IMG/VR virus record: IMGVR_UViG_3300009788_000356
Coordinates: 1 to 20,037 of that record
DNA from: a virus
DNA length: 20,037 bases
Reading direction: 5' to 3' (one strand)
The translations under genes and the position numbers were made by a program. The notes beneath the pieces are model-generated. The model was not told the origin of the DNA. It searched no databases and saw only the letters and a program-made list of their open reading frames with translations. How positions within the stretch are numbered: the stretch's first letter is position 1; the number at the start of each line of letters is the position of its first letter. Positions 1-17,616 of the stretch are shown here, one piece after another.

Positions 1-1757
1 GCTAAAGTTAGACCGCCAACATTCTGATTTAGCGTGTCTGTCGTTATAGCCACCGTTGTTACTCCTACTCCCAAATTGATTATCACGATTTCTGTTCCAA
101 CAGGGAAAGCAACCGAACTATTAGCGGGAATAGTAAGGGTGTTTGCTGACGCATTACTCATTGTTACGATTGCAAACCTATCGAATAAATCTAACTCGTA
201 AGCTGTCGTGGTGTCGGCAGATACTTCTTTTTTAATTTCTACGTTGTCATTCGTATCTATTTCTAATGCGGGTGTTGTTGTAAAAGTACTACCTGTCGAT
301 ATTGCGAATCTATCACTTGAACTATTGTCTGCTCCTATTGTCCAATCTGTTAAGCCTGTTAGGTCAAAATGTAATAGAGCATCACCCGTACCGTCTTGCT
401 CTATGGTTACTCCTGTTTCTGCCCCTGTTGTCGCAGTATCTTCATAAATTCCAACTCTTGACGGAGTTGAAAATCTACCTAATCCCCAATTTCCAGTATC
501 ACCCTCAATAATTCCTTTTGTCGTTGTACTTGTACCTGTTCTAAATAGAATATCATCAGCGTCTCTGTGAGTTTCAATTTGCAGGTGTCCTAATTCTGCG
601 GCAAGTATGGTATTTGTTGCTCCACCTTGTAATGTGATATAAGATGTTGCCCCCGAAACTTTAACAGAGCCACTAACTTGAAAAATCTCGCCAGTTGTAT
701 TGGCTTCAAAGTTATCAATTCCAATTCCGATTTCACCATTTTTTAATACAGTAAAGGCATCTGCCCTTGCGCCAATACCCGTACCATTTCCAATATTAAA
801 AAGCCTGTCTGCGGCATTTAGTGTTGTTGGTGATAAAGGAATATATGTAGTGCCAAAATTTCCGATAGAAAATTCTGCATAAGAATAGGCTTCATTTTCA
901 ATTCCCCCAACAAAAGAATAATGCCCCGAAGCATCATTTGAAAGCCCTGTCGAAGTAGAAATTAGTCCAGACGCAATCGTGGATTGCCCCATAGCTACTG
1001 CGTCCGTATTCGAAGCAGTAGTGGCTGTTCCAGACGCAAACGAACCAACGCCCGAAGCAGTAGTATTAAAACCATGAGATAAAGAATAATCCCCTGTCGC
1101 TCCCCTTGTAGAACTCGCTGCGTTGCTAAAACTTAAATCCGAAGCCCCTAATCCGACATTTCCAAAATTAGCGGCTGTTCTGCCCTCTACAACATACCCT
1201 ATTCCATTTCCCTCGTCTATTGTAGAAAATGCCAAATTGCTTAACATAACAAAAGTTCCCGCTATGTCTGGTAAGGTGTGTATTCTATTGGCAACACCAT
1301 TAAACTCTAAATCACTATAAAAGGTATTGGCATTATTATAAGAACGTAAATTAACGCCGTTTTCCAACCGTAAATTATTTTGAATTAAAATATTTGTAGA
1401 ACTATTACCGATTGTTATTTCTTGTGTGCTGTCGTCTATGGCAATAATCGTTCCGTTGGTGCTTGAATCATGGTCGCCTATGGTAACAATCAAATTTCCA
1501 CCTGCCCTTGTTCCACTTTCATCATAGCCCTCATTGGCTGCGGCAGCAGCAGTCAGATCACTCCATATAGTACCATTGTATTGTCTGAACTTACCGAGCG
1601 TATCGTTCCAATATATCTGCCCCTCTTTAACTCCTGTGGGATCGCCAGATGTTCCAATAGGATCACCTAATACAACACCGTTAGTATGTCTTGCGGGTTG
1701 TTGTGCGCTTAAAGAAAACGCTAAAAATAGTCCGAGTAATAAAATTAATTTTTTCAT
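1..1757 (-). CDS. Tail fibre / receptor-binding adhesin, partial (C-terminus beyond left edge)
   Basis: An open frame runs from the ATG at 1757 to the window edge (585 complete codons, no stop). The start overlaps the stop of the upstream gene as TAATG, which supports this ATG and suggests coupling. Residues 1-18 form a Sec-type signal (two Lys, a Leu-rich core, then SLSA before QQ). Around residues 40-70 is the motif GQIYWN...KFRQYNGTIW, common near the N-terminus of Bacteroidetes surface proteins and phage fibres. Residues 222-305 are six 14-residue repeats like YadA heads. After them comes the pattern DRLFNIGNG...ADAFTVLKNGEIGIG, typical of Bacteroidetes tail-fibre and adhesin stalks, then Ser/Thr/Gly-rich beta sequence. 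Position last in the tail module fits a host-contact fibre. The fibre role is inferred; no catalytic motif is visible. Confidence 0.75.
   Translation of the reverse strand, partial: MKKLILLLGLFLAFSLSAQQPARHTNGVVLGDPIGTSGDPTGVKEGQIYWNDTLGKFRQYNGTIWSDLTAAAAANEGYDESGTRAGGNLIVTIGDHDSSTNGTIIAIDDSTQEITIGNSSTNILIQNNLRLENGVNLRSYNNANTFYSDLEFNGVANRIHTLPDIAGTFVMLSNLAFSTIDEGNGIGYVVEGRTAANFGNVGLGASDLSFSNAASSTRGATGDYSLSHGFNTTASGVGSFASGTATTASNTDAVAMGQSTIASGLISTSTGLSNDASGHYSFVGGIENEAYSYAEFSIGNFGTTYIPLSPTTLNAADRLFNIGNGTGIGARADAFTVLKNGEIGIGIDNFEANTTGEIFQVSGSVKVSGATSYITLQGGATNTILAAELGHLQIETHRDADDILFRTGTSTTTKGIIEGDTGNWGLGRFSTPSRVGIYEDTATTGAETGVTIEQDGTGDALLHFDLTGLTDWTIGADNSSSDRFAISTGSTFTTTPALEIDTNDNVEIKKEVSADTTTAYELDLFDRFAIVTMSNASANTLTIPANSSVAFPVGTEIVIINLGVGVTTVAITTDTLNQNVGGLTL
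843..1094 (-). repeat. Six tandem 14-residue (42-nt) YadA-head-like repeats in the fibre
   Basis: Residues 222-305 divide exactly into six 14-mers: GDYSLSHGFNTTAS, GVGSFASGTATTAS, NTDAVAMGQSTIAS, GLISTSTGLSNDAS, GHYSFVGGIENEAY and SYAEFSIGNFGTTY. Gly at position 8 is invariant, positions 13-14 are mostly Ala-Ser, and small or aromatic residues alternate. This is the left-handed beta-roll pattern of trimeric autotransporter heads. DNA identity between units is only partial (GCTTCG or GCGTCT recurs), so the repeat is old or under protein-level selection. Confidence 0.75.
1704..1757 (-). other. Sec signal peptide-like N-terminus of the tail fibre
   Basis: Codons 1-18 encode MKKLILLLGLFLAFSLSA, followed by QQ. 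The Lys-Lys n-region, 13-residue hydrophobic core and SLSA/Q junction match the usual Bacteroidetes type I signal peptide pattern. Residue -3 is Leu rather than a small residue, so cleavage is likely but not certain. No other Met is available nearby to make a leaderless form. Confidence 0.7.
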
Positions 1758-2131
1758 TATATGTCGATTGCTTGATTTTGTGTATAATTAACTCTTAATT
1801 GTTCTGCGGCAGCATCACCACCATCCCACGTTTGCCCCATAAGGGTTAATGGATCACCCGCATTAGTTATCTTTCTAAAATAAACCTCATCGTTAATTTC
1901 TAAAGCTGTAAGGTCAGTGTTTCCAGAGCCTTTTTGAACCCAATATGAATCTATCCAAACCCAACCTGGAAATCCAGAAACCTGTGTTGAGTGAATCTTC
2001 TCTATCCGAGCCGCCGTGACGTTCCAAAATATAAACCAATCAGTTGAGGCGGGTAGCGCAGTCGCAGTAGGAATTTCTAAAATAGTCTTACTTGCTGCTA
2101 AAATACTTAATACTTGATCTATTGCGTTCAT
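1757..2131 (-). CDS. Small distal-tail protein of unknown function, 124 aa
   Basis: The gene has an ATG start 16 nt after the stop of the 686-aa gene, and its TAA shares one base with the fibre ATG (TAATG), so it is probably translated in step with the fibre. The protein starts with a helix-like stretch (residues 1-20), followed by a Trp-rich part (WFIFWN near 32 and GWVWIDSYW near 56) and a charged C-terminal part (EVYFRKI near 83). There is no signal peptide, membrane segment or recognised catalytic motif. Position between the large tail protein and the fibre suggests a fibre-attachment or fibre-assembly protein, but this is inference from context only. Confidence 0.7.
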   Translation of the reverse strand: MNAIDQVLSILAASKTILEIPTATALPASTDWFIFWNVTAARIEKIHSTQVSGFPGWVWIDSYWVQKGSGNTDLTALEINDEVYFRKITNAGDPLTLMGQTWDGGDAAAEQLRVNYTQNQAIDI

Positions 2132-2147
2132 ATCTTAATTTATTAAT

Positions 2148-4208
2148 TTATTCAATCCATAATAATCCATCCGCACCTGCATCTATCTGTAATGGAACAC
2201 CACTACCAAGCAGAATCTCACCTGCTGTCGTTCCTTTAGTGCTATCGAATACATAGTCGGTCCGAACCAAATTAGCCTTTATAGCATAAAGGTTTGTTGT
2301 TCCAAACGACTTGCTTTCCACTTCGCCCTCTAACAGATAACTTTGCCCCTCTATAAATATCCTGTTATGAGCCAAAATCAAAACAACTTTTTGAGCCATA
2401 GCGGTAGGTAGTGGCAGCAGGTTTAGTTCGTAAAATTCCCTCACCTTACTATCCAAATGGATCGTTTGCGTGTCTGTGACATATATTTCCTGCTCATCAT
2501 TGGGCTTCCATTTCAAATTCATTACATAGGCAAATCTCGCCACATAAGTAATCGCTGTGCCGTAATTTATCTCATTATTTTTGGTTGAGAACCATTCAAT
2601 TTTATGACAGCCCTTTTGAACGGTCTGAACATTAAACCACTCTGAAATAAATTCTTTAGCAGGGAAAGTAGCGTCTGTTCCGTTAACTTTAATGTAATAA
2701 TTTCCCGATCTTGAGGCTAAAGCTGTTATAAATTCATGCCTGTCATAATCAACCACATTATAAATTGTTGTGATCTTAAGCACTGTGTCGTCTGCGTAGG
2801 ACAGATCATTTGTTGCGTTTAGTTCTACAACGTAGAAACTAAAGCTGCTTGTAGGCTGAATTAACTTTGTCACTTTAAGCCATCCAACACCCTCAACACT
2901 CATATAATCCCCAACATTAACCCAATCCATTAGGTTTTCCAGTAAATTGTAGCTTCCGATTTGAGTTGCGGGTGAATCTGGGTCCCAAGTGTTGCCAGAG
3001 CCAAAATATATTCCTAAAATGTTTCCTGGCAAGACTTTAACCCTGCCATCACGCAGGTCTTTGACATTCATGTTTTCGGTCATTTGGACCACTGATAAAG
3101 CGGCGACAAGCCCATCACAATCCCAAAGTGCGGCTGCCACTGTATCATAGTTGGTTTTTACCTGTGTATTAGGACTGTCACATTTCTGAAACGGTTGCAG
3201 GTAATTTCTGTGGTTTATCTTTGTATCTTCCTCAAAAGAAAGCGTATTTGATACTTTTCTTCGTATTCCACATTCAGTATCCCAAATCTCGTTTAGCTTA
3301 AATCTAAAGGCGTTAACATTAGAAATCTCAAAAACAGGATCAAAGTCCACTAAATTTGCTGAAAATGCAGGAACGGTTATCGGAATATTGATCTCGCAGC
3401 CTATTTGGTCCTTGATATAAACCGTGTGCGCTCCTGCCGAAATACCACTCCAAGAATTTGCTACTTGATAAAAACCACCAATGTCCATTCTATACTCAAA
3501 AGTCAAAAGCAGAGGATAAGTTGTTGGTCCTATCTGCGATAAAGGGTATAGCCTGTTAACAATTACAATCCCGCCAGAGGGTGTTGGCTCAATATCAATA
3601 CTGATATTAGCCGTTAAAAGAAGTGGAATCCTTGCTTTAAAGGTTGCTGCAACACTGTCAAAGTCCATAGTAATATCAATCTCATTACCTCTTACTGTTT
3701 CAAAGATAAAAGGATTAGTCGCTACCGATTGAGAAATAGGCGAAGTGATATTGTCTGCCTGTGGAGTTGTTGTTACAGTTAACTTCACATCGTCGCAAGG
3801 AACTCCGACTGTCGCTGCTGAAAGAGCAACCGTGTCAATAGTGAAAGTACTTGCAGGAGCGTCATTAAAAAACGCAATAGTTATAGCCCCTGCTGTGGTG
3901 TTTGTTACAAGCGCAAATTGTGTTGCTGCGTGTAGATTAATAGCCGTAATAATAACTTTATTATTAGGAAAATCCATAACAACAGTATAAAGCGAAAAGT
4001 TGTTATAGAAAGTCGAATACCCTTTAGCAAGAATAGAAACCTGGTGATCTATTCCATCGCCGAGAACACCAATAGTTACCTCGCCAATCGCACTTCTCAC
4101 CGCTTTAAATATCAAAAACAGGTCAGTTCCCGATATAGAATCACTTACTGATATAACCTCGTCTATTGCGGGTAGAGAAACTACTGTAACTTCAAATCTT
4201 GATGCCAT
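2148..4208 (-). CDS. Large distal-tail protein, 686 aa, with SprB-repeat-like segment
   Basis: The ATG lies 1 nt after the stop of the 757-aa gene. The first ~290 residues are Thr/Val/Ile-rich beta sequence. Within them, residues 232-283 resemble a SprB-type repeat of Bacteroidetes gliding adhesins: YRMDIGGFYQV, then WSGISAGAHTVYIKDQIGCE. The middle part (300-380) contains Cys pairs and a mixed helix/strand region. The C-terminal half has GW/GDY-type motifs (GDYMSVEGVGWLKV near 427-440) and ends GADGLLWIE. There is no signal peptide. Position between the tape-measure-proximal tail protein and the fibre suggests a baseplate or tip protein carrying adhesive beta-sandwich domains. I do not recognise an assigned family for the whole protein; a hub or adhesin role is inferred. 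Confidence 0.7.
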   Translation of the reverse strand: MASRFEVTVVSLPAIDEVISVSDSISGTDLFLIFKAVRSAIGEVTIGVLGDGIDHQVSILAKGYSTFYNNFSLYTVVMDFPNNKVIITAINLHAATQFALVTNTTAGAITIAFFNDAPASTFTIDTVALSAATVGVPCDDVKLTVTTTPQADNITSPISQSVATNPFIFETVRGNEIDITMDFDSVAATFKARIPLLLTANISIDIEPTPSGGIVIVNRLYPLSQIGPTTYPLLLTFEYRMDIGGFYQVANSWSGISAGAHTVYIKDQIGCEINIPITVPAFSANLVDFDPVFEISNVNAFRFKLNEIWDTECGIRRKVSNTLSFEEDTKINHRNYLQPFQKCDSPNTQVKTNYDTVAAALWDCDGLVAALSVVQMTENMNVKDLRDGRVKVLPGNILGIYFGSGNTWDPDSPATQIGSYNLLENLMDWVNVGDYMSVEGVGWLKVTKLIQPTSSFSFYVVELNATNDLSYADDTVLKITTIYNVVDYDRHEFITALASRSGNYYIKVNGTDATFPAKEFISEWFNVQTVQKGCHKIEWFSTKNNEINYGTAITYVARFAYVMNLKWKPNDEQEIYVTDTQTIHLDSKVREFYELNLLPLPTAMAQKVVLILAHNRIFIEGQSYLLEGEVESKSFGTTNLYAIKANLVRTDYVFDSTKGTTAGEILLGSGVPLQIDAGADGLLWIE
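3360..3515 (-). other. SprB-repeat-like domain segment within the 686-aa tail protein
   Basis: Residues 232-283 follow the SprB/adhesin pattern: a tyrosine strand with an Asp-x-Gly-Gly turn (YRMDIGGFYQ), a Ser-rich link with 'SGISAGAHTVYI', then 'KDQIGCE' followed by alternating hydrophobics. In SprB-type repeats the corresponding pattern is roughly Y-x-x-D-G-G ... L-x-x-G-x-Y-x-V-x-x-x-D-x-x-G-C. The match covers one copy only; the position of the single Cys is conserved. Confidence 0.6.
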
Positions 4209-4209
4209 A

Positions 4210-6483
4210 TTATATTGCTTTTAAAACTTTCCATTTACCCTCTTTATTGGGCTTTAATTCAAATAAATAACCATATTCCTTTAGCCCATCTTCATTTATG
4301 AACTGTATTTTGCCGAAATAATTAGGAACTTGTCGCCCATTTATTTCTGTTGTTCCATATACCTGCTGATTAACTAAAAAATCTACTTCGTATTCAAAGG
4401 TAATCCATTCATTTATAAATCTGGACTTTTCGATCTCACTTATTTGAAGATCACCATTTTCAAAACGCTCAACTTCCCCTGTTTTTTTAGTTCCAAGCCC
4501 ACTGTTCCCAATGCTGTTAGAATATCTTAAATATTCCTGCTGAAATACTCTTAACCCGCTACCGAAAAACCATTGGTGTCGCTCACTGTTGCGAAAAGGA
4601 GTAAGACGCAGGTTTGTTGCCGTTTCTGGACTAAACACACCCGTAGGTGCTTGAGCGTAATCATCCTGCCATAGCCTTTGAGCCAAAGCATTACCAAAGG
4701 GCTTTAGGTCCATAACAAAAACTGTCTTATCATATCTGGTATCTTCCTCTGGAAAAATCTCTTTAGACTTTCTTCTTGCAAATTCCATCCCGTAGCTGTC
4801 TGCCCTTGCCTCGCTGATCTTATCATATTTTTTATCTATTCTGGTTATGGGTGTGGTATATCCAGTTTGAGTATTGTACTCATCCAAGCCCATAGCTTCT
4901 TCATATAGGTTGTCACCAGAGGGCTGCTTATAGCCAAATTTCATGTTAGCATAATACATATCGTCGGCAGTTTTTCTCTCTACATTTGAAACTTGATTCG
5001 GCAGGATAATAGTTGTTTCCTGCTGAAAAAAATACTCCATATCTTCCATAACAAACACATCCGTTTCACTTATTCTCTCGATAGTGTACCCTACATTGTG
5101 TATTGAATTAGCCGTCTTTATTAGTTTGTCAAGGCTAAACTCAAGTTTTTCATTATCAAATCCCCGAACCCAAAATCCAGAGGAAAGTCCTGTATATGCA
5201 AATTCCCCGTCAGAGCCATATCCTAACTCCGTTCTTCCGTAAAAATCACTCTTAAATTTCATTTTATCGCCTGTGATTATTTGCAATAGCTTTTCGCCAA
5301 CATCGTGCATTAGTACGGTTTTTGCTTGAGTTGGATCGAAATAACTTTCTTCCTCTACCTTTAAAGTACACTTGACATCTTGGGCATACACCCGAACTCC
5401 TGCGTTATTATCTACATACATATCCGAGCGAAGCCAGAGTTCAAAACAAAGGCTTTCCCCCGCAAGTAAATCAACAGTAGTTGAGTAAGAGCCGTCCATT
5501 TGGTGAGAGAACTTGCCAAGAGGAAAATCCTTATTAACAGGTAAAATTTCTTCACCTGTTATTGCTGTTGAGGTATGTCCTATGGACGATAGTTCATGGA
5601 TCAGCGCAATACGTTCTTTAAAGTCAAGATTAGCCCCATTCTCAAATCTAACCAAACTCAACTTATACCGACACCATTGGACGTTTTCGTACTGTTGAAA
5701 CCACGCATCGAAATCGTAGGTAAATGTTATATCTAAAGTTCTTCTCTGGTCCGAATTAAAAAAGAACATATTAGCGGCTGAACTCGTATAGTTGACACCA
5801 CCTGGACTTGGACCATCTGTGCCTAATGCTGTTGGAACTATATTTTCTGCAAAGCCTATATGAGATTGCCCGATTAACCTTAATGGAAGTGCTGATATAT
5901 TTCCTCTTGTTCCACCAGAGTTTGAAGCCACTTCAAGTTTTGTGTTTTTATCCCCGTCATTCCCAACAATGGTGTTTACATTGTCGGTATCCCAAGTGCT
6001 AACTAAAAATATCTTTCTTCCGTTAAGACCTACTGTTTTTTCGTTCAGAGCATCAATAGTTTTGCTATTTATAGACGTTAGGCGGTCCATTTCAAACTTT
6101 TCGTTTAATTGCGCCTTTATTAGAGCCGCCAAGCCGCCTGTTTTAAATGGAATACCAACAGATATTTCGTTTGACTTAAATTTACTGAAATTGAATGTTC
6201 CAGTGCTATGAAGATAAAATCCGTCCTCTGTTGGCAGGTTACGCCATTCTTCAAGTTCTACTTTAGCCTCAACATCCCTGTTTGATCTTGCTGTATTAAG
6301 GAAATCTATCGCTTCTTCCGTAAAACCTAAATTTTTAGAAAGTTCGGTCCATATACCAAAAGTCTTTACGCTTCTCTTGAGGGTTTTGTCGCTTTCATCC
6401 CAACCCATAGGATCGGTTGTAAGTTCTAATTCCTTGCCCCTATCCCTGTCAATTAATTTATATTTTACCCTTTCGTATCTCAT
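4210..6483 (-). CDS. Large tape-measure-proximal tail protein, 757 aa (distal tail/hub candidate)
   Basis: The ATG overlaps the tape measure stop by one base (TAATG). The N-terminus has the arrangement KLIDRDRGKELEL, then DPMGWDE...LKRSVKTFGIW and a further ELSKNLGFTEEAIDFL. I recognise this pattern from tail proteins that recur after the tape measure in Bacteroidetes phages and prophages (GWDE, LKR, hydrophobic-G-I, then an acidic amphipathic helix). The remainder is mixed alpha/beta without a signal peptide or an obvious protease, lysozyme or glycosidase motif. By synteny it should take the place of the distal tail or tail-associated hub proteins that cap the tube and nucleate the tip. The exact assignment (Dit-like or Tal-like) cannot be decided from sequence. 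Confidence 0.75.
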   Translation of the reverse strand: MRYERVKYKLIDRDRGKELELTTDPMGWDESDKTLKRSVKTFGIWTELSKNLGFTEEAIDFLNTARSNRDVEAKVELEEWRNLPTEDGFYLHSTGTFNFSKFKSNEISVGIPFKTGGLAALIKAQLNEKFEMDRLTSINSKTIDALNEKTVGLNGRKIFLVSTWDTDNVNTIVGNDGDKNTKLEVASNSGGTRGNISALPLRLIGQSHIGFAENIVPTALGTDGPSPGGVNYTSSAANMFFFNSDQRRTLDITFTYDFDAWFQQYENVQWCRYKLSLVRFENGANLDFKERIALIHELSSIGHTSTAITGEEILPVNKDFPLGKFSHQMDGSYSTTVDLLAGESLCFELWLRSDMYVDNNAGVRVYAQDVKCTLKVEEESYFDPTQAKTVLMHDVGEKLLQIITGDKMKFKSDFYGRTELGYGSDGEFAYTGLSSGFWVRGFDNEKLEFSLDKLIKTANSIHNVGYTIERISETDVFVMEDMEYFFQQETTIILPNQVSNVERKTADDMYYANMKFGYKQPSGDNLYEEAMGLDEYNTQTGYTTPITRIDKKYDKISEARADSYGMEFARRKSKEIFPEEDTRYDKTVFVMDLKPFGNALAQRLWQDDYAQAPTGVFSPETATNLRLTPFRNSERHQWFFGSGLRVFQQEYLRYSNSIGNSGLGTKKTGEVERFENGDLQISEIEKSRFINEWITFEYEVDFLVNQQVYGTTEINGRQVPNYFGKIQFINEDGLKEYGYLFELKPNKEGKWKVLKAI

Positions 6484-9400
6484 TAAAGCGTGTCGTTTTT
6501 ACTTAAAATAAAAGCAATATCATCCTCAAGGCTAATGGTCTGATTTAGCTTGAATGACATTTTCTTTTTATTGATTGCATCAACCATTTTATTCGTCTGT
6601 GTATCCATTCTATCGACAAACAGATCGCCCATCATTAAATAAGAACTCATATTCTCTGGATGCGTATAATTATAAGGTTTCATATCGACCTGCGCCATAG
6701 ACATTTGATGAATCAGTTTGTTGGCGTTAGGATGTATAACATCATCTTTTTTAACATAGGTTAGATGATCCCCAATCTTTTTCGGGCTGATCTCTACCTT
6801 GCCATCGGCAGATATTTTGGCTTCCCTGCGCTTTTCGCCCCATACGCCCCAACCCTCATACCTATCATATTCACCTTTACCACCTGCAAATTTAGGAATT
6901 GGTGTTGCAAGTATGGTAGCGGCTTGAATCGCTCCCAATGCAAGTACGGCAGGAATAGATGTTAGGAAAGCGAGAACTCCTGTTTGTGCGGTTACTTTAG
7001 TTACCGCAATAGCAGTATTTATTGCAACTTCAACCAATGCTGCGGCTTTATTCAAGATCGCCTGTTTACGTTCCTCTTTTCGTTTCTGTTTCTCTAACTT
7101 GGCATTTTTATTATCCCTTTCGGCTTCTATTGCGCTTCGCTGTTCTTCTGATAAGAGTTGGTTGTCTAATAGTTCAGCATAAAAATCGTTATTCTTTTGA
7201 ATCTCATCGTCATATCTCTGTATTGAAGCATCAAAAAGGGTTGAGCCTAAATTACCCAATTCACTTGCGAACTCACCTGCCCTTTCCAAGTTTTCAATAA
7301 GGGTTTCTTTTTGCTTCTCACCCTCATCATCAGAATCTTTGGTTTTCTTCTTGGCGAATTTTATAAAGTTCTTATAATCCCAATCATAAAGTTTATTAAA
7401 TTCAGCGAACAGTTCTGACGCTGAAACACCTAACTCATCCGCAAGTTCATTCATGGCTTTAGTAAGATCAGCTTTCATGGCATCAAGAGCATCCGCATCG
7501 GATAATTCTTCCTGCGCTTGTTCCCAAGCGTCGATAGCACTTTGCGCTCCTGCATCAATTATCTTATCACGCTCCTTATTTCCGTTTTTAGTGATGTCCG
7601 TTAGGGCTTGGTCAAATTTTTCAACAGCCAATTTCCTTTCATTCTCATTTTTTGTTGGATCACGGGTAACTAACAATAATTCTTCCCTTGCCAATCTTTC
7701 CCTTTCACGCATAGAGGCAGAAATGGCATCTAACCTAACCTGCTCGGCATTACCCTCATTCTTGGCGATTTCATCGTTAGCATTTATGTTTTGAAGTATT
7801 CTAAATTTCTCAAGGTCAAAGGCTGTTTTTCTTCTTTTGGCTGCCGCTTTTTTGTCAAATTCCTCTTTTTCTTTATCCTTGCCCTTTTGGAAATTATTGC
7901 TGTCGTCAATTATTTGATTGAGTTCATTTGCTCCGATAACTGCTTCTGCAATTCTTTTTTTAGAGTTTTTACTGAACGAAGTAAATTCATGTTCTGCAAA
8001 TTTTGCAGCCGCTTTAGCATCAAGACCTCTTTGGTTAGTTACCTGCTTTATGATTTCCTTTTTTCGGAGCAGCCTTGTTCGGCTATCTTCAATAAATGCA
8101 AGTTCTTTGTCAAGCACCTCAACTAAAGCATCTTCTATTTTAAATAGCTGTCCAGTGGCAGCCGCAGCCCTTAAAGTGCCATTAGCTATATTATCCATAG
8201 ATTTTTCAACCTTACTTCCAAAACGATCTAACCTTTCAACTTCATCATTAAATTCCTCTAATTCCTTTTGGGCATCACTAACATTATCCTTAAACAAGAT
8301 AAATGCTGCGGCTACTGCCCCCAATATTGCTATAATAACTCCCGCAGGACTTGTTTTTGTGGCTATATTAAAGGCTTTCATCGCTGCTGTGGCAATATTA
8401 GTAGAACGAGCCAATGCTAATTTAACGGCAGCCAAAGTTTCAATAACTATCGTGTATCCCCTCACAATAGAAGTAAGAAGAACAACAGTTAGTTTATATA
8501 CCACAAAAGCTTTAATTAATTTTATGGTTATAAGAAGTACTTTTTCAAGGTTATCGGCTAAAAAATCAAAGCCTCGCATTAATCGCTGCGATACACTGTT
8601 GGTTTTACCAAATTCCTCTACAATAAGTATCCATTTATTTCTTAATCTTGTGACAGCCGCTTGTAGGGTACTTACTTTATTAAAACTATTAAGACCAAAG
8701 GCGATCTCAACTTGTTTTGCGAATCCTGGCAATACATCTTTAGTTATAACCTCACCTTTTTTAAGCATTTTATCCAGTTCGGCGGTAGTAACTCCAAGCG
8801 AGTTCGCCATAATATCCATCGCACCAGGTAATCTTTCGCCTAACTGACGACGAAGTTCCTCTGTGGTGATTTTACCTTTAGAAACCATCTGCTCAAGGGC
8901 AAGGAAGATGCCTTGAAGTTCATCGGTTTTAAGTCCTAAAACACCTGCGGCTTTGGTCATTGTACCAAAAATCTTTTGGGTTTCTCTGGCACTTAATCCC
9001 GCTTGATCGGAAGCTGCTCGGAATTTAATATATCTATTGGTAACGGTGATTAATTCAGCACCATAATCCTGTGCAATTTGCTTTAAAAATCGCTCCGTCT
9101 GACCGAGTTCCATTTCATCGGTAATCACCGCTTTCATAGAGAATCGTAAAGAATCCAATGTTTTTGTTAGTGTAAAGACGTTTTTTATCATGGAAGCGAA
9201 CAGTGCTGCCCCGCCCAATACACCAAATGCACTCACAAGATTTCCAACGCTTCTTACCAGACCGCCTAATCCTGTATTTTTGAAGTTAGAAACCGCTTTT
9301 TTAGCTTGATTAGCCTTTTTTGCAAGGGCATTATATTCTTTCTGCGCCTGTCGGATTTTCTTATTGTGAGCGTCCTGGTTTTTAATTGCACTTTTCTCTG

Positions 9401-9917
9401 TGGATATTAAATCTTGAAGCCTATCTCTGGCAGCTTTTAACCTTGTGGACAACTTAACATAGGACCGATTAAGATGTGCGTTTTTTGTTGCTACCCGTTG
9501 AGCAGCACGTTCTTCTTTTTTCTTCTCGGCAATCAGTTTATTAGTAAGTTTAATGTCTTTATCGACCTGCGCCTTTCTTGCTTTTTCCTCTTTCTTACCT
9601 AAAGCTATTTTTTTGGCTGATCGCTGCTCATCCTCTATCTGCATTTTATTAACAAAGGTTGCTATCCTTTGCAGTTCAATAAGTTCTTTTTTCTTAACTT
9701 CATCGAGTTCTTTCTGCTTGGTAATAACTTTTTGAAGCCCCTCAACCTGCTTCCTTAAACTGTCCTCGACGGTACTTGGAGTTTTTTTATTGGCAAAGTC
9801 AGTAAGTAGCCTGGTAGCTTTGGTCAATGCCTCATTTAGAGCGGCGATTTCGCCCCGAATTTGCTTTAATGCCTTTTTCGCTGCTGTTACGGCAGGTTGA
9901 TAGCTATTTTCTGCCAT
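6483..9917 (-). CDS. Tape measure protein, 1144 aa
   Basis: This is the longest gene. It sets tail length and forms the core of the tail tube. Residues 10-210 are Lys/Glu/Ala-rich coiled coil. Residues ~215-245 are Gly-rich and hydrophobic, and ~250-440 match the tape-measure N-terminal domain (LKTDELQGIFLALEQMVSKG near 328, then TEELRRQLGERLPGA). Hydrophobic, probably membrane-active stretches lie at ~460-485, ~523-543 and ~957-1003. Further coiled coil covers ~545-950. The C-terminal ~140 residues (PKFAGG, GWGVWGEKRREA) resemble the conserved tail of Bacteroidetes tape measures. At about 1.5 Angstrom per residue the length implies a tail near 170 nm, an estimate from the usual rule. Its ATG lies 14 nt inside the end of the 218-aa gene. 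Confidence 0.93.
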   Translation of the reverse strand: MAENSYQPAVTAAKKALKQIRGEIAALNEALTKATRLLTDFANKKTPSTVEDSLRKQVEGLQKVITKQKELDEVKKKELIELQRIATFVNKMQIEDEQRSAKKIALGKKEEKARKAQVDKDIKLTNKLIAEKKKEERAAQRVATKNAHLNRSYVKLSTRLKAARDRLQDLISTEKSAIKNQDAHNKKIRQAQKEYNALAKKANQAKKAVSNFKNTGLGGLVRSVGNLVSAFGVLGGAALFASMIKNVFTLTKTLDSLRFSMKAVITDEMELGQTERFLKQIAQDYGAELITVTNRYIKFRAASDQAGLSARETQKIFGTMTKAAGVLGLKTDELQGIFLALEQMVSKGKITTEELRRQLGERLPGAMDIMANSLGVTTAELDKMLKKGEVITKDVLPGFAKQVEIAFGLNSFNKVSTLQAAVTRLRNKWILIVEEFGKTNSVSQRLMRGFDFLADNLEKVLLITIKLIKAFVVYKLTVVLLTSIVRGYTIVIETLAAVKLALARSTNIATAAMKAFNIATKTSPAGVIIAILGAVAAAFILFKDNVSDAQKELEEFNDEVERLDRFGSKVEKSMDNIANGTLRAAAATGQLFKIEDALVEVLDKELAFIEDSRTRLLRKKEIIKQVTNQRGLDAKAAAKFAEHEFTSFSKNSKKRIAEAVIGANELNQIIDDSNNFQKGKDKEKEEFDKKAAAKRRKTAFDLEKFRILQNINANDEIAKNEGNAEQVRLDAISASMRERERLAREELLLVTRDPTKNENERKLAVEKFDQALTDITKNGNKERDKIIDAGAQSAIDAWEQAQEELSDADALDAMKADLTKAMNELADELGVSASELFAEFNKLYDWDYKNFIKFAKKKTKDSDDEGEKQKETLIENLERAGEFASELGNLGSTLFDASIQRYDDEIQKNNDFYAELLDNQLLSEEQRSAIEAERDNKNAKLEKQKRKEERKQAILNKAAALVEVAINTAIAVTKVTAQTGVLAFLTSIPAVLALGAIQAATILATPIPKFAGGKGEYDRYEGWGVWGEKRREAKISADGKVEISPKKIGDHLTYVKKDDVIHPNANKLIHQMSMAQVDMKPYNYTHPENMSSYLMMGDLFVDRMDTQTNKMVDAINKKKMSFKLNQTISLEDDIAFILSKNDTL

Positions 9918-10560
9918 TTCTTTCCCTTTGTTCGTTAATTCTGTTGGCTATTTTACCGATCTCTAACCATTTAGCCACACTTATCTTTTTTATGTCAATA
10001 TTGTTCTTTCCAGTTATCTGTTCCAATACAACAGCCTGTCCAACCAATGTTTTTTCGCTCTCGGAATGTTCTTTCTGCATATTCTCTAACTCACTTTTCT
10101 TTATACCGAGTTTATTCTGTGAGCCTTTATTGATAGCTATAAGACGCTCAATTTCTTTTTCCTTATCATTGTCCTTATTATAGAAGTAACGCCAATCCTT
10201 GAGTGCTTCTATGAACATATCAAGGGTTTTCTCGTTCATGTCTTGGGTGTGCATTTCGTAAATCAAGATTTTACTCACCGTGTAGCGGGTTTCCAGGTAC
10301 GCTACCTCTGATAGAAGTTGGTAGTAATACATAAGGGTATTGCTGTCACTCAAGACAACCCACTGATCGAAGATCGCTTTCCACCTTTCACCTGCCCCAA
10401 TAGGTATCCCAACATCATTATACCCATCATAACCAACAACCAAAAACCTAAAGTCTTTACTCTTGAATACCATATCAAAATTATAGATTGGTAGATCATA
10501 GCAGTCATTATAAAGAAATTGCTTTTTTATACCTTTAAATATGTTTCTTAACGCCACCAA
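9904..10560 (-). CDS. Tail protein upstream of tape measure, ~218 aa (tail assembly chaperone candidate)
   Basis: The frame opens just after an in-frame TAA at 10563-10561, and its first possible starts are TTG (10560) and GTG (10557); there is no ATG until codon 30. The TTG/GTG pair lies within the last codons of the 156-aa gene, which suggests coupled re-initiation. Residues 1-110 are mixed, with aromatic-rich patches (WKAIFDQWVVL near 60). Residues ~125-170 are a charged coiled coil, and the C-terminus reads DIKKISVAKWLEIGKIANRI. Position directly before the tape measure is where siphophages keep tail assembly chaperones, and the helical C-terminus fits that role. No slippery heptamer is visible in the overlap. 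The function is positional. Confidence 0.7.
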   Translation of the reverse strand: MVALRNIFKGIKKQFLYNDCYDLPIYNFDMVFKSKDFRFLVVGYDGYNDVGIPIGAGERWKAIFDQWVVLSDSNTLMYYYQLLSEVAYLETRYTVSKILIYEMHTQDMNEKTLDMFIEALKDWRYFYNKDNDKEKEIERLIAINKGSQNKLGIKKSELENMQKEHSESEKTLVGQAVVLEQITGKNNIDIKKISVAKWLEIGKIANRINEQRERNGRK

Positions 10561-11018
10561 TTATCTTCTATATAAATTACAAGTCCTGGCTCTATGATTG
10601 TATCATTTACCAAGTCATTATTTTCTTTTGTCAGATCAAATATAATCCCATAGGTCTTTCTTAAAAAAGCAGCCTTGCCATCTGTTGAGAATATCGAATA
10701 TTTGTTTTTGGAAAGTGTTTTTAGATTCAGCCCATTGAAAGTGCCGCCTGTCCACTGAAAATTGTACGGCTCACCCTCTTTTTTAGGCTCTACCGTGAAC
10801 TCCGTTTTAGCAATTTCCTCTGTGCGTTTCGCATAAGTTCCATCACCATAAGCCCAACTTAAAGGACCACCGCTTGAGTTCAAGCCAATACCCAACTGCT
10901 TCTTCTCTAATATAGATATAATAGCATCCATATTAGCAATAACAATCTTCTTGGCTTCATCTTCAATAGTTTCTGAAAGCGCATCAATACGCCGCAACTG
11001 TTCTTCGACAATACCCAT
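10548..11018 (-). CDS. Small tail-region protein, 156 aa
   Basis: I use the ATG at 11018 (MGIVEEQLRR); a TTG two codons upstream at 11024 is possible but less likely. The protein begins with an amphipathic helix (residues 1-40), followed by a Gly/Ser loop (LNSSGGPLSWAYGDG). The second half is beta-like (YNFQWTGGTFNGLNLKTL, then KYSIFSTDGKAAFLRKTYG). There is no signal or membrane segment. The gene begins only ~20 nt after the terminator that follows the tail tube and overlaps the next gene by 13 nt. It could be a tail completion or assembly factor; I do not recognise the family. Confidence 0.75.
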   Translation of the reverse strand: MGIVEEQLRRIDALSETIEDEAKKIVIANMDAIISILEKKQLGIGLNSSGGPLSWAYGDGTYAKRTEEIAKTEFTVEPKKEGEPYNFQWTGGTFNGLNLKTLSKNKYSIFSTDGKAAFLRKTYGIIFDLTKENNDLVNDTIIEPGLVIYIEDNWWR

Positions 11019-11031
11019 CCCCAAAAGATTT

Positions 11032-11065
11032 AAAAAAAGCCTCTAACGTTTTCAGCTAAAGGCTT
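11032..11065 (-). terminator. Intrinsic terminator after the tail tube gene
   Basis: Read on the minus strand, 11065-11037 forms an 11-bp stem, AAGCCTTTAGC against GTTAGAGGCTT (two G-T pairs), with a 7-nt loop TGAAAAC. It is followed by a run of seven T (11038-11032). It lies between the tail tube stop (11095) and the next ATG (11018), with no promoter-like element behind it, so it probably acts as a partial terminator that raises tail tube expression over downstream tail genes. Confidence 0.8.
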
Positions 11066-11094
11066 AATTCAATTAGCTATAAACCAAACCCATC

Positions 11095-12018
11095 TTATAC
11101 CGCAATTTTACTTGGAGTATTAGACTTATACAGGTCTGTGCCTTGCAGGATGATCTCTCTTACATTTGCCGTATCGTGCAAATGAGCAGTCCATACTTCA
11201 CCTACCCCTATTGCGGCAACGGTAAAGGTGTAATCGCCATTTGGCGATTCTACAACAGTTTGCGATTCCACCACATCATCACGACGAAGTTCAAAGTCGC
11301 CTGTTAAGCCACCCACCCAAACGTTCTGATTAGCTTTGCTTTTAGCAGTAATAACCCATGTTGTTGCCAAATCAGCAGGTATGGGAGCAGTAAGAACAAC
11401 CTCATTAACACCATCCAAGTTTTGAGGTTGGAATGGATCAATTTGAACTTGCTGAATATAAACGTACTTATCGTCTAATTCACCCCTGCTGCTAAACTGG
11501 AACTTAATACTCTCTTTCTGCCCTGTCGCATCGGTTGGGAATTGTAATTTACCCGCTTGTAACATACCGATAGAAAAGCCTTTCATTGAGCCGTCTGCCG
11601 CTTCTGTTCCAAGTAAGTTCCCATCCCTGTCAACAAATACCATATCATAACTGCCGAAGCTGTTAAGTGAATGAAGTGCTGCGTGAAATGCTAAACCATT
11701 GATAAAGGTTGCCATGAACTCGTAAAGTCCTAATGTGGCAATCTGTTTTGTTCCATCATCAAGTGTTTCTTCAACATCATCACTGGAATTGTCGGTAAAG
11801 GTTTTGATGCCTTTCAGTATAATCAGATTCCCCTTTGCCTGTTCTAATTGGGCATAGGTTTCATCCAATGTCGCTGTTCCATCATATTTGAATCCTTGTT
11901 GAGTGATCCAAAGTGAGGTTGCTTTCTTAAGGAATTGTTTGCATCCTTTTGTGCCAGTTCCTAATATGGCATCTGTGCCACATGAAACTAAATTATAAAT
12001 TGTGTTTAGTAATGCCAT
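11095..12018 (-). CDS. Probable major tail (tube) protein, 307 aa
   Basis: The ATG is 1 nt after the stop of the 54-aa gene. The N-terminal ~205 residues are a compact alpha/beta region (GIKTFTDNSSDDVEETLDDG near 69; YDMVFVDRDGNLLGTEAADG near 123), and residues ~140-200 carry beta hairpins with RGELDDKYVYIQ. The C-terminal ~100 residues read like an Ig-type beta sandwich (VVLTAPIPADLATTWVITA, then ESPNGDYTFTVAAIG). Tail tubes of many siphophages carry such surface Ig-like domains. The gene sits between connector genes and the chaperone/tape measure genes and is followed by a terminator, as expected for a gene with high product demand. A minor tail protein is the main alternative. Confidence 0.7.
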   Translation of the reverse strand: MALLNTIYNLVSCGTDAILGTGTKGCKQFLKKATSLWITQQGFKYDGTATLDETYAQLEQAKGNLIILKGIKTFTDNSSDDVEETLDDGTKQIATLGLYEFMATFINGLAFHAALHSLNSFGSYDMVFVDRDGNLLGTEAADGSMKGFSIGMLQAGKLQFPTDATGQKESIKFQFSSRGELDDKYVYIQQVQIDPFQPQNLDGVNEVVLTAPIPADLATTWVITAKSKANQNVWVGGLTGDFELRRDDVVESQTVVESPNGDYTFTVAAIGVGEVWTAHLHDTANVREIILQGTDLYKSNTPSKIAV

Positions 12019-12019
12019 T

Positions 12020-12184
12020 TTATACTATATTTAGTCGTTTATAAAATTTTCTTCCATCTTCGTTAAGTTGGATTTTGAATCCAATAGGCTGAACTTTATC
12101 CCCTATCTGCGTTGGTTTTTTCAGAGGATACCATTTAAACCCTTTCTTTAACGTAGGCTTTTTATTATTTTTTTTACTTGCCAT
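12020..12184 (-). CDS. Small lysine-rich protein, 54 aa
   Basis: This short frame starts with ATG at 12184 and stops with TAA at 12022-12020. It fills the space between the 180-aa connector gene and the tail tube with 1-nt gaps on both sides, which strongly supports it as a gene. The product is very basic: MASKKNNKKPTLKKGF..., with GDKVQPIGFKIQLNEDGRKF in the second half. There is no membrane segment. A role in the connector/tail tube step or in nucleic acid binding is possible, but no family is recognised. Confidence 0.65.
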   Translation of the reverse strand: MASKKNNKKPTLKKGFKWYPLKKPTQIGDKVQPIGFKIQLNEDGRKFYKRLNIV

Positions 12185-12185
12185 C

Positions 12186-12728
12186 TTAATTACATTTTTC
12201 GGTTAAATAATATTCTAAATCCCCTATAATCGCAAACGAATGTAAAGGGTGCATATCTGTTTCTAACTCGATGTTACCATATTCGTATCCGTTAAAGATA
12301 TTTCTAACGCCTTTTTCAAGACCTGTTACTTGAAACTGATTTGTGGGATGCTCGTTTAAAAGCCCTACCACATCATTTTGAACCGCTACATCCCGTCTTT
12401 CCTCGTCACATACTACCTCATCAAGATTAAGCATAAAGCAAATTTTAACCCTTACCTTAAACTTAAACCCATCGTCGGTATTATGATCCTGGTTTTCCAG
12501 AAAAAACATAATGCCTTTTTTATTATCGCTGTCGCTGTAATAGGCATTTTTATATTCGTTATTTCCTAAAAAAACCTCTGGAACGAAACCTAACTCCTTT
12601 CTATTTTTATATGCTCTGCCGTGTGCATCAATTTTGCCCCATGAATCTACAAGACCATCATAAAGATACTTTTGTATTGATTGAATTTCTTTGTCTATCC
12701 CAATGGGATTAGAGAGTAAATAATTCAT
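12186..12728 (-). CDS. Head-tail joining / tail completion protein candidate, 180 aa
   Basis: Starts with ATG at 12728, 20 nt inside the end of the 207-aa gene. The N-terminus NYLLSNPIGIDKEIQSIQKY and the motifs GRAYKNRKELGFVPEVFLG, KFKVRVKICFMLNLDEV and DMHPLHSF match a protein pattern I know from Bacteroidetes phage and prophage head-tail regions. The protein is soluble mixed alpha/beta with no signal. Placement between the capsid/connector genes and the tail tube is typical of tail terminator or completion proteins. The specific role is inferred from order. Confidence 0.7.
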   Translation of the reverse strand: MNYLLSNPIGIDKEIQSIQKYLYDGLVDSWGKIDAHGRAYKNRKELGFVPEVFLGNNEYKNAYYSDSDNKKGIMFFLENQDHNTDDGFKFKVRVKICFMLNLDEVVCDEERRDVAVQNDVVGLLNEHPTNQFQVTGLEKGVRNIFNGYEYGNIELETDMHPLHSFAIIGDLEYYLTEKCN

Positions 12729-13332
12729 CGCCTGGTGCTACATAAATGTTTATTGCCTCGCCTCTTGTAATAGATTTAAGGAACTTTTGCTGTCCAAAAA
12801 ATCGTTTCACTTCCCAAACCTCTGCACCGTACCGTGAAGTTATGCCCATAGAATACTTGTAATTTCTATTGGTAACTGCAAACCTTACGTTGGAACTTCC
12901 GATTACGTCGAAGTGTAACTTGTCTAAAAATTCGTTAGAGAATCTTTGAGTTTTATTACTTCGTGTGCTTGTAATAATAATCTCGGAAACTACTATAACC
13001 ATCCGCAATAAGATCAACTGATCGAACATTGTTAAGTTCGCATCAACCTCATCTTGAATAATATCTTTCTTATTAAAAACATCTGAAAGGACTTGATATA
13101 CTACCTGCTCTTGTAGCTGCGCTAAATAGGTATTAAAGTTCGCATCGCTTATATCAACTAACGGCTGTGCATCCCTAATATTAGTAAGGGAAACAGCAGA
13201 GTGTTCGTCTTGAAAAAAACGCCCACTGTCCGTAGTGAGATTAGCTGCGCTAACAGTAATAGGGCTTCCAATTTCTTGTCGCCAACCTATTCTTTGCAGT
13301 AGTACAACTTTTATTTCAGTATGCGTAGCCAT
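12709..13332 (-). CDS. Head-tail connector candidate, 207 aa
   Basis: The ATG lies 3 nt after the capsid stop. The first ~60 residues are polar beta/loop (SPITVSAANLTTDSGRFF), the middle is strongly helical (QLQEQVVYQVLSDVFNKK, then MFDQLILLRMVIVVSEI), and the end is beta (NYKYSMGITSRYGAEVWEV, GDELFTL). Hydrophobic residues in the middle helix are amphipathic, so a membrane protein is unlikely. The first gene after the major capsid protein in this type of module usually encodes a head completion or adaptor protein. No family motif is recognised with certainty. Confidence 0.6.
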   Translation of the reverse strand: MATHTEIKVVLLQRIGWRQEIGSPITVSAANLTTDSGRFFQDEHSAVSLTNIRDAQPLVDISDANFNTYLAQLQEQVVYQVLSDVFNKKDIIQDEVDANLTMFDQLILLRMVIVVSEIIITSTRSNKTQRFSNEFLDKLHFDVIGSSNVRFAVTNRNYKYSMGITSRYGAEVWEVKRFFGQQKFLKSITRGEAINIYVAPGDELFTL

Positions 13333-13335
13333 ATC

Positions 13336-14349
13336 CTATGCTTGAACAAATTTGAATATTGGCGTTGCTGTTGCAGTGCTTTCAAATGCACCTTGAGTGG
13401 TAAAGATAGTAGTGATTTCATACTCATCAACTACATCCTGTACGTTACCACCTGCACCAGAAGTATCTACTAAACTTCTCATAATATGCATATCGTGTTG
13501 GATACCCATAATGCTGTCACGGAACGTAGTAAACATACCCTCGTTCTCACCTGGTCCACCTAAACCTCTACGGTTTTGTGGCTCGTTCCAGGTAGTCATT
13601 CCTACCATGCCTTTTTTCCAGGCATAACAAGTACCACTTGCGGAAGCTGTTAATTGTTCTTCCTCAATGTAGTTAAGACCTGGCATCTGATACACTTGAT
13701 TGGTAGCATTTGCCTTTCCTTGAGCCGAAAGTCGTCTAAACTCTGCCGCATTGACTTGATCGCCAACCACATCATAAATAGGTCGATATTTATTCTTCCT
13801 TAAAGCCGCTTTTAAATAATCGAAGAATCGGTCATTGTCTGCGGATAGGTTATCGAACTGATCGTTTGTAGTTTCGTCAAAAAGCATAATCGAATCCGTA
13901 CCAACTTGACTTCTATTGGTGTCAATCCAAGAAGTGTTATAAGAGGATAAATCCTCGTATAAATTAATCAGTGCGTTTTTGATATTATGCTGCAAAATCT
14001 CACCATAAGTGAATATGTTGTTATCCGCTTGTTTATATGAAACCTTAAATGTCTGTACTCTTTTCAAGAAAGCCACATCAACTTCAAAAGAATCTGCAAA
14101 AGCAGCCGCAGCGTGAGCCGCAACTTTAGCTGTTCCAGAAGCTATTGAATTTCTATTGAATAGAATAGCCTTTGTAGGCTGCTCATCTGACTTCTTTAAA
14201 GCGGTCAAGTTACGGAACACATTGTTCTGATTCCCCATTAGCATAGCCAGTAAGGAGTGTTCCCAAGTTCTCATTTCTGCATCACCCATAATGCCTACTT
14301 GAGCCTTTGTTATCGCTTTTAATAATTGGGTTGCTGTTAAATTTGCCAT
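13336..14349 (-). CDS. Major capsid protein, 337 aa
   Basis: ATG at 14349, 3 nt after the scaffold stop, in the order scaffold-capsid-connector. The length and composition suit an HK97-fold coat protein. An N-terminal helical part (TATQLLKAITKAQVG) precedes an Ala-rich segment (SIASGTAKVAAHAAAAFADS near 68). The central domain has YDVVGDQVNAAEFRRLSAQG near 192, and the C-terminal part has KGMVGMTTWNEP near 246 and an MRSLVDTSGAGG stretch. No cleavable N-terminal delta region is evident, and no protease gene lies in the module. The capsid shell role is inferred from synteny and overall pattern. Confidence 0.85.
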   Translation of the reverse strand: MANLTATQLLKAITKAQVGIMGDAEMRTWEHSLLAMLMGNQNNVFRNLTALKKSDEQPTKAILFNRNSIASGTAKVAAHAAAAFADSFEVDVAFLKRVQTFKVSYKQADNNIFTYGEILQHNIKNALINLYEDLSSYNTSWIDTNRSQVGTDSIMLFDETTNDQFDNLSADNDRFFDYLKAALRKNKYRPIYDVVGDQVNAAEFRRLSAQGKANATNQVYQMPGLNYIEEEQLTASASGTCYAWKKGMVGMTTWNEPQNRRGLGGPGENEGMFTTFRDSIMGIQHDMHIMRSLVDTSGAGGNVQDVVDEYEITTIFTTQGAFESTATATPIFKFVQA

Positions 14350-15401: not shown

Positions 15402-15757
15402 TTTGAATGGTTTTCAATTTTTTTCCTTAATTCTTTTACCAGATCATCCTCGCCAAAAGGAATGTTATTAACCTTACAGTGATGCACTAAATGTGATCTG
15501 TTGGCTACCTTGTAATTAAATTCTTTTACAACAATTTCTTCTGGTTTAGGGGCTTGGATTTTAGAGGGTACGTACTTTATTTTTACCCCTGTGTTCCGTA
15601 GTTTACTAAAATCCCGATTTAGTTCGTCTGCACTCTTTTGAGTAATCTTAACCACTTTGGGTTTTCTTGGCTTATTTTTATCTGTCGTCATAATTGACAC
15701 AAGTTCCCCTCGATGCCATTCCATAACGTCAAAATTAAGCTGTTTGCTGTGTTCCAT
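15398..15757 (-). CDS. Small head-region protein with possible helix-extension-helix C-terminus, 119 aa
   Basis: The longest frame starts at 15757, 23 nt inside the portal end. In-frame ATGs at 15724 (11 nt after the portal stop) and 15691 are alternatives. Residues 23-45 are Lys-rich (DKNKPRKPKVVKITQK). The C-terminal ~35 residues (SHLVHHCKVNNIPFGEDDLV, then KELRKKIEN) look like the SAP/HeH/LEM-type helix-extension-helix fold that phages often place near portal and capsid genes. The domain call rests on pattern only. The role could be DNA binding in the head or decoration. Confidence 0.6.
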   Translation of the reverse strand: MEHSKQLNFDVMEWHRGELVSIMTTDKNKPRKPKVVKITQKSADELNRDFSKLRNTGVKIKYVPSKIQAPKPEEIVVKEFNYKVANRSHLVHHCKVNNIPFGEDDLVKELRKKIENHSK

Positions 15758-17402: not shown

Positions 17403-17500
17403 TTTTATAGAAAAGGATTATAAGCCATAAAGATATAAAAAAATTTGTTACCATAGATTTTATTTATAGTGCCAAGAAGAAGAATAAATATTTTATATAC

Positions 17501-17537
17501 AAAAAAGTGGGCGACAATCGAGAGATCATCTGCCCAC
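17501..17537 (-). terminator. Terminator-like hairpin in the terminase-portal gap
   Basis: On the minus strand a GTGGGC / GCCCAC stem (17537-17532 and 17512-17507) encloses a shorter inner pairing around ATGATC...GATTGT with a small loop, and is followed by six T (17506-17501). This meets the criteria for an intrinsic terminator. It lies ~80 nt after the terminase stop and ~30 nt after the promoter-like element, so it could end terminase messages or act as an attenuator in the portal leader. Confidence 0.7.
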
Positions 17538-17569
17538 CTAACTAATTTAAACCTACTATCTATGCATCG

Positions 17570-17577
17570 CAAATATA
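17570..17577 (-). promoter_or_regulatory. Bacteroidetes-type -7 promoter element (TATATTTG)
   Basis: The minus strand reads TATATTTG, a full match to the Bacteroidetes -7 consensus TAnnTTTG. It lies in an AT-rich gap upstream of the portal operon; transcription would start near 17563 and run toward the portal. No good TTG -33 element is present at the usual distance; only T-rich sequence is seen. The assignment is therefore moderate. Confidence 0.5.
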
Positions 17578-17616
17578 AGAAAAATTTATTAAAATAGTTT
17601 TTAAAATAGATTTTAT

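Follow-up and report, generated by a model that had tools for sequence, protein, structure and literature searches.

Gene order of the window

The window, which is the whole stretch of DNA analyzed here, is a 20,037-base IMG/VR virus fragment whose large genes are all encoded on the minus strand. Read along that strand, they encode the terminase large subunit, the portal, a major head-type protein, the tape measure protein, two virion structural proteins, a 124-aa protein, and the fibre. The tail end of this series consists of the following genes.

6483..9917, minus strand: tape measure protein (Pfam TMP_3; phrog_18891)
4210..6483, minus strand: tail-tip (hub-like) virion structural protein, 757 aa (phrog_15220, E 3e-92)
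2148..4208, minus strand: virion structural protein, 686 aa (phrog_26672, E 1e-35)
1757..2131, minus strand: stand-alone adaptor of 124 aa without a signal peptide, assigned by homology to the fused N termini of fibres that lack one
3..1757, minus strand: tail-fibre coding sequence, 585 aa, ATG start, C terminus cut by the contig end

The fibre gene follows the tape measure, hub/tail-tip, and structural genes, which is the position expected of a tailed-phage fibre. Its frame reaches the contig end without a stop, so the C terminus is missing, and a fibre without a signal peptide (SP) could lie beyond that end. The homolog of the 757-aa tail-tip protein in phage phi19:1, gp97, is virion-proven according to its MS/MS note. 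In the portal gene (15735-17402), residues about 274 to 313 form an insert that resembles a DnaJ-type CxxCxGxG zinc finger (below the Pfam cut-off, with E 1.5e-4); the insert is kept in the portals of loci L083 and L081 and is absent from those of JQ, Freya, Arctus, and phi19:1.

The fibre starts with a predicted Sec signal peptide

Two features mark the start of the fibre.

1755..1759, minus strand: TAATG stop/start overlap coupling the adaptor and the fibre, read from the sequence
1704..1757, minus strand: predicted Sec signal peptide, residues 1 to 18, MKKLILLLGLFLAFSLSA, with predicted cleavage before Gln19 (crude signal peptidase I rule, shuffles, and controls)

The final A of the adaptor's TAA stop is also the A of the fibre ATG. 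The original prediction of a TAATG start with no alternative Met nearby was borne out: no ATG, GTG, or TTG occurs in the 10 codons from the preceding in-frame stop to the fibre ATG, and the next Met after the start is residue 171. The N terminus reads MKKLILLLGLFLAFSLSA/QQPARHTNGVVLGDP (the slash marks predicted cleavage here and below), that is, MKK, a Leu-rich core, SLSA, and then QQ.

SPs were called with a home-made, crude Sec/signal peptidase I (SPase I) rule, not SignalP, and its score favours Gln at +1. Applied to the window fibre, the rule placed cleavage between residues 18 and 19, with Gln at +1. The leader has the basic n-region, the hydrophobic h-region, the small residues at -3 and -1, and the Gln at +1 that define the Bacteroidota Q-rule; Gln is found at +1 in about 71% of Bacteroidota SPase I substrates (PMC10653852). 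When the first 40 residues were shuffled, 2.3% of the shuffled sequences passed the rule, and none out of 20,000 equalled the observed score. All of the other window genes tested failed the first version of the rule. Among the controls, the exported protein lambda Lom passed, and T7 gp17, the lambda J and side-fibre ORFs, and T4 gp34 to gp38 failed. The Bacteroidetes-type export signature that had been proposed for this N terminus was thus upheld by the rule, the shuffles, and the controls, and that the window fibre is a real Sec substrate appears well supported by its sequence. The low GC content of the leader (26% for the SP compared to 41% for the rest) was considered as a hint of recent capture and was dropped, because the leader is 57 bases of Lys/Leu/Ile codons.

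The fibre body carries a module shared with hosts

Beyond the leader, three parts of the fibre could be told apart.

1542..1703, minus strand: mature N-terminal domain, residues 19-72 (QQPARHTNGVVLGDP..GQIYWNDTLGKFRQYNGTIWSDL), a candidate docking domain
723..1199, minus strand: YadA-head-like repeats and the DRLFNIGNG..FTVLKNGEIGIG segment, residues about 187-345 (Pfam YadA_head, sub-threshold)
48..260, minus strand: distal fibre domain, residues 500-570 (ASANTLTIPANSSVAFPVGTEI; phrog_21978, E 9e-7)

The YadA_head repeats scored 18.5 bits against a cut-off of 25, and the available part of the fibre, whose C terminus lies beyond the contig end, has no YadA-type C-terminal membrane anchor. At the distal end, residues 500-585 matched tail proteins of Shewanella, Ruegeria, Variovorax, and Streptomyces phages by tblastn. 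Residues 187-341 are common to the tail fibre of Leeuwenhoekiella phage Arctus, and the YadA-like module also occurs in L002 with 49% identity. The same module is encoded in 62 of 300 Flavobacteriaceae genomes, and the host ORFs that contain it mostly start with Q-rule SPs (for example, one with /QNGINYKALIKD). It is found on SP-less N termini as well, in Tenacibaculum L027 and in L061, and a module that sits on both SP-bearing and SP-less N termini is a travelling part. This central receptor-binding module is shared, and has probably been exchanged, with secreted proteins of flavobacterial hosts. The proposal that the fibre gene was captured from a host adhesin together with its leader is therefore retained for the central module but not for the leader. 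Capture does not explain the leader because the SP, the mature N terminus, and the split adaptor are kept together in relatives whose hubs are 32-58% identical, and because arrays of two to five SP genes occur in phages of several families.

A complete SP fibre of 374 aa with the YadA-like module lies in the prophage-like region L067 (10769-11893), before lysis-like genes. The proteins tested from that region gave no terminase, portal, or tape-measure match in PHROGs, and this fibre may be the spike of a non-tailed virus.

Signal peptides are common in the fibre arrays of Cellulophaga phages

A search for relatives of the tail-tip protein gave 31 phage records. The fibres of the Polaribacter, Tenacibaculum JQ, and Leeuwenhoekiella phages among them have no SP, and in Cellulophaga phages phi19:1 and Nekkels there are arrays of fibre or lyase genes, all of which carry an SP of their own. 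Altogether, nine Cellulophaga phages (phi19:1, phi10:1, phi39:1, phi18:3, phi13:2, phi46:3, phi19:3, Nekkels, and Ingeline) were seen to have runs of two to five adjacent fibre or pectate-lyase genes with SPs, and the phages with such arrays span at least three ICTV families. MS/MS notes in GenBank place phi19:1 gp101-104, phi18:3 gp85-87, phi10:1 gp91-94, and phi39:1 gp25-26 in the virion or as part of it; this evidence is annotation, covers Cellulophaga phages only, and could include co-purified periplasmic protein.

The SP rule was passed by 30 of 32 fibre-array genes, 28 of these with Gln at +1, compared to 0 of 61 core virion genes, but the p-value of 2e-22 overstates the evidence, since the two classes were set after the pattern was seen, the score favours Gln, and many of the array genes are homologous copies. 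The two array genes missed by the rule also look SP-like by eye. From environmental phages, 74 fibre ORFs were collected through a generic fibre repeat; one of them passed the rule, and none had Gln at +1. The assumption that a tail fibre usually has no SP thus fits 73 of these 74 ORFs and fails for the related flavobacterial phages. A need for disulfides was rejected as the general reason for export, because there is no Cys in the window fibre and there are 0 to 2 in many of the array members.

In the gp102 family, SP codons 2-20 show no nonsynonymous differences, whereas about 30% of synonymous sites differ. Phage phi19:3 carries the same cassette as the arrays, with 97.8% identity from residue 1. 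Homologs of the pectate-lyase domain in the crAss-like phage phi14:2 and in phi17:2 (44-49% identity) have a conventional SP-less N terminus. An SP pectate-lyase cassette is 97-98% identical between L010 (18142-20475) and L014 (15013-17346), and also in phi19:3, despite different tails; in phi46:3 gp81 the same lyase is swapped to a different SP and N terminus. Small single-TM proteins directly precede the Cellulophaga SP arrays (L010 16450-16599, which is phi19:1 gp100; L009 16459-16602; L011 13781-13993) and could link export and assembly. A prophage with a window-family tail tip, L070, has an SP-gene array (10043-13573) that ends in a pectate-lyase-like protein (NCBIfam PelZ match), as in the Cellulophaga phages.

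No type IX secretion (T9SS) C-terminal sorting domain was found with NCBIfam in the complete homologs, the window fibre's own C terminus being beyond the contig. Prevalence was sought with TMP_3 and phrog_2335 in 399 Flavobacteriaceae genomes, and the 3 and 0 matches, respectively, were too few for an estimate.

Split adaptors go with signal peptides, and fused adaptors go without

To sample loci blind to the fibre, IMG/VR was scanned with the tape measure protein, which gave 13 loci; scans with the 757-aa protein (single sequence, six-row alignment, and two-row alignment) gave no matches. L083, whose head protein is 84% identical to that of the window, encodes an adaptor of 120 aa that shares 55% identity with the window adaptor, and then an SP fibre, MKKYLLLIALFITFLSFG/QNPSKHSNGVILGDP. 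In L085/L086, whose tail-tip protein is 32% identical, the adaptor has 137 aa (39%) and is followed by a gene of 82 aa and by an SP fibre, MKKIIFLLAFLFATITYA/QTPARHYGGV. Behind this SP fibre, L085 has a second SP-like gene at 17437-17733 (MYKLLLLIPIFSFA/QLP), which may mean that this lineage has an array as well; the leader of this gene is shorter than the rule can score.

In L088 and L091/L092, the same adaptor-type N terminus is fused to the fibre, which is at least 1,858 or 463 aa long, respectively, and has no SP. The fibre of Tenacibaculum phage JQ is also of the fused kind, its first 45 residues matching the window adaptor (E 2e-7, z 15.7). It is the sole match of the adaptor among 50,697 phage records; at database scale the E value is 0.3, but the match lies at residue 1 and at the same gene position. 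In prophage L070, SP fibres accompany a split adaptor of 208 aa, which matches JQ with E 3e-6. The same alternation was seen in a second adaptor family, with L071 (split, SP) and L082 (fused, no SP) related at z 16, and in a third, with L072 (split, SP) and L061 (fused, no SP) related at z 11, which is weak by BLAST (E 0.012). Over the three families, an SP was present in 6 of 6 split cases and absent from 5 of 5 fused cases (Fisher p 0.002), several of the fibres on both sides of this count being cut by contig or locus ends.

None of the adaptors examined has an SP. In all six split-type phages (window, L083, L085, L070, L071, and L072), the SP fibre has its predicted cleavage after residue 18, with Gln19 next. 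Adaptor and fibre genes can be apart, with a 956-aa gene between them in L072 and the 82-aa gene in L085. The window fibre has no attachment domain in its own chain; it has a leader instead, and the attachment-type domain lies on the separate gene at 1757-2131. AlphaFold models of the adaptor from a single sequence and from three sequences had mean pLDDT values of 37 and 45, too poor for a fold search.

A candidate docking pair

The adaptor itself falls into two parts.

1997-2131, minus strand: N-terminal part, homologous to the fused N termini of SP-less fibres (JQ)
1766-1963, minus strand: C-domain, found only in split phages

Among the loci compared, the C-domain, W.WI..V.K..N...LE.ND.VYF..I.N.GDP.TL.G.T..GGD..Y.QNQ, occurs only in the window, L083, and L085/L086. 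Full-length matches to the fibre N-domain (residues 19-72) are confined to these same loci among those compared, with 63% identity in L083 and 56% in L085/L086 (range, 55-63%). The signal peptides, counted from the alignment, are about 44% identical. A variable leader followed by a conserved mature N terminus, which is common to phages and not to hosts, points to a cleaved signal and then a binding domain, not a hydrophobic tail anchor. It had been said that the idea of a secretion signal on the fibre would fall if homologous phage fibres all carried this segment as a known tail-attachment domain. The homologs do carry the segment, but as a leader that precedes the candidate attachment domain.

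Alternative explanations

The strongest competitor, which we consider possible but appreciably less probable than a virion role, is that the fibre is an exported enzyme or adhesin like lambda Lom, serving in receptor blocking, matrix clearing, or lysogenic conversion, and that such proteins merely co-purify with virions. In its favour, lambda lom is an SP gene located between J and the side-fibre genes, secreted host proteins often contain the YadA-like module, SP lyase cassettes move among unrelated phages, and the Q-rule proteins of Porphyromonas gingivalis phages were interpreted as secreted (PMC10367356, PMC10653852). However, in the Cellulophaga phages every large gene from the tail hub to the lysis genes has an SP, leaving no other receptor-binding protein; GenBank MS/MS notes put array proteins in virions; the distal domain of the window fibre is of the phage-tail type; and SP fibres swap with SP-less ones in the split/fused pattern. 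Display on the cell surface as the main role, for decoy or superinfection exclusion, would suit the export signal and the adhesin-like module, but it is the least probable of the readings weighed here, as the complete homologs have no T9SS C-terminal domain (that of the window lies outside the contig) and array members were detected in virions. For the same reasons, the earlier suggestion of real export is favoured as a route for a virion part, since comparable arrays are in virions according to the MS/MS notes, and its decoy component is not.

Two further readings do away with export as a working step, and both seem improbable. The N terminus may be an uncleaved hydrophobic anchor in the tail tip or inner membrane, with no export in practice, as the hydrophobic core with its Lys flanks and the small single-TM proteins beside some arrays (phi19:1 gp100) would allow. 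The tail-tip anchor, which was one of the first explanations offered, is disfavoured because the segment varies while keeping SP properties and an SPase I site, and residues 19-72 are conserved at 55-63%. The constant cleavage position and Gln19 in six out of six split-type phages, the Gln at +1 in 28 of 30 genes of a mostly different set, and the higher conservation after the cleavage site than before it when the window is compared to L083 or L085 all argue against an anchor. Alternatively, the SP may be a relic of recent capture of a host adhesin, on a protein that works in the virion from the cytoplasm, and the module is indeed common to Q-rule host proteins. But the SP is kept in several diverged phage lineages, with L083 and L085 weakening the relic explanation, purifying selection on the SP of the gp102 family is strong, and the mature N terminus is common to phages and not to hosts.

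Proposed assembly route

We favour, at somewhat better than even chances for the whole chain, a split fibre in which the exported part belongs to the virion, the two halves are made in different compartments, and docking takes place after lysis. Export by itself is rated higher than this chain and appears well supported by the sequence comparisons, and docking of the exported fibre after lysis would be a further step. The SP-less 124-aa adaptor, judging from its homology to fused fibre N termini, would join the tail tip during assembly in the cytoplasm. The fibre would be exported by Sec, for which the sequence support is strong, and cleaved by signal peptidase I at the predicted site before Gln19, with Gln19 probably capped as pyroglutamate. 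Because the complete homologs gave no match to a T9SS sorting family, the protein would then be kept in the periplasm, where the fibre would form. Lysis would mix the compartments, and residues 19-72 would dock on the adaptor C-domain, as their co-occurrence suggests. T4 and P22 fibres or tailspikes can join particles in vitro, so attachment after lysis is physically plausible. Near-identical SP cassettes (gp102, 97-98%) on phages with different tails are odd if docking is tail-specific. Possible gains from export are that sticky fibres are kept off assembly, receptors on debris are blocked, and polysaccharide is cleared at lysis. We give an even chance to the broader proposal that an assembly route in which fibres leave the cytoplasm through Sec, mature in the periplasm by the action of signal peptidase and glutaminyl cyclase, and are attached after lysis is widespread in Bacteroidota phages, with repeated switching between fused and split forms.

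In textbook tailed phages, particle assembly is completed in the cytoplasm. Export of Bacteroidota phage fibres with docking after lysis would change the order of assembly, and fibres of co-infecting phages or from neighbouring lysed cells could then mix on particles, altering host range without genetic change. There would also be a route for the trade of parts between fibre domains and secreted host adhesins, as well as a function for phage Q-rule secreted proteins listed as unknown (PMC10653852). For annotators, this means that SP-bearing genes in the fibre region should not be labelled bacterial contamination or lysogenic-conversion genes.

Comparison with known systems

Signalling peptides on the lyases of Ingeline and Nekkels were mentioned in passing, with no mechanism, by Bartlau et al. 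(PMC8776804). The P. gingivalis phage paper reported five Q-rule genes without assigning a function (PMC10367356), and the Q-rule paper repeats the function of these genes as open (PMC10653852). No statement that SP proteins are the split half of a virion fibre was found in the literature searched, most subscription papers being outside its scope. The split/fused rule and the mechanism thus appear unreported, whereas SPs on flavophage lyases had already been noted (PMC8776804).

By their description, the P. gingivalis Nixviridae prophage genes follow the Bacteroidota Q-rule as the window fibre does, but they are listed without a function or a tie to the virion (PMC10367356). The JQ fibre (QIG62347.1), L088, and L091 share the window's tail module and the adaptor-type N terminus; unlike in the window, the adaptor is fused to the fibre and there is no SP, which is the conventional arrangement. 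The Cellulophaga arrays resemble the window in having fibre or lyase genes that follow the tail hub, Q-rule SPs, and one or more short SP-less genes just upstream, and the tail-hub gene of the window is homologous to those of phi19:1 and Nekkels. They differ in that the upstream genes are unrelated, the fibre bodies are mostly unrelated, and there are several genes compared to the one seen in the window. Lambda, a tailed phage, likewise has a gene with an SP, lom, in its fibre region, but Lom is an outer-membrane protein of the lysogen and not a virion fibre. The filamentous phage proteins pIII and pVIII are virion proteins made with Sec signal peptides; these phages, however, are assembled in the membrane and extruded, whereas assembly of tailed phages takes place in the cytoplasm and lysis releases them.
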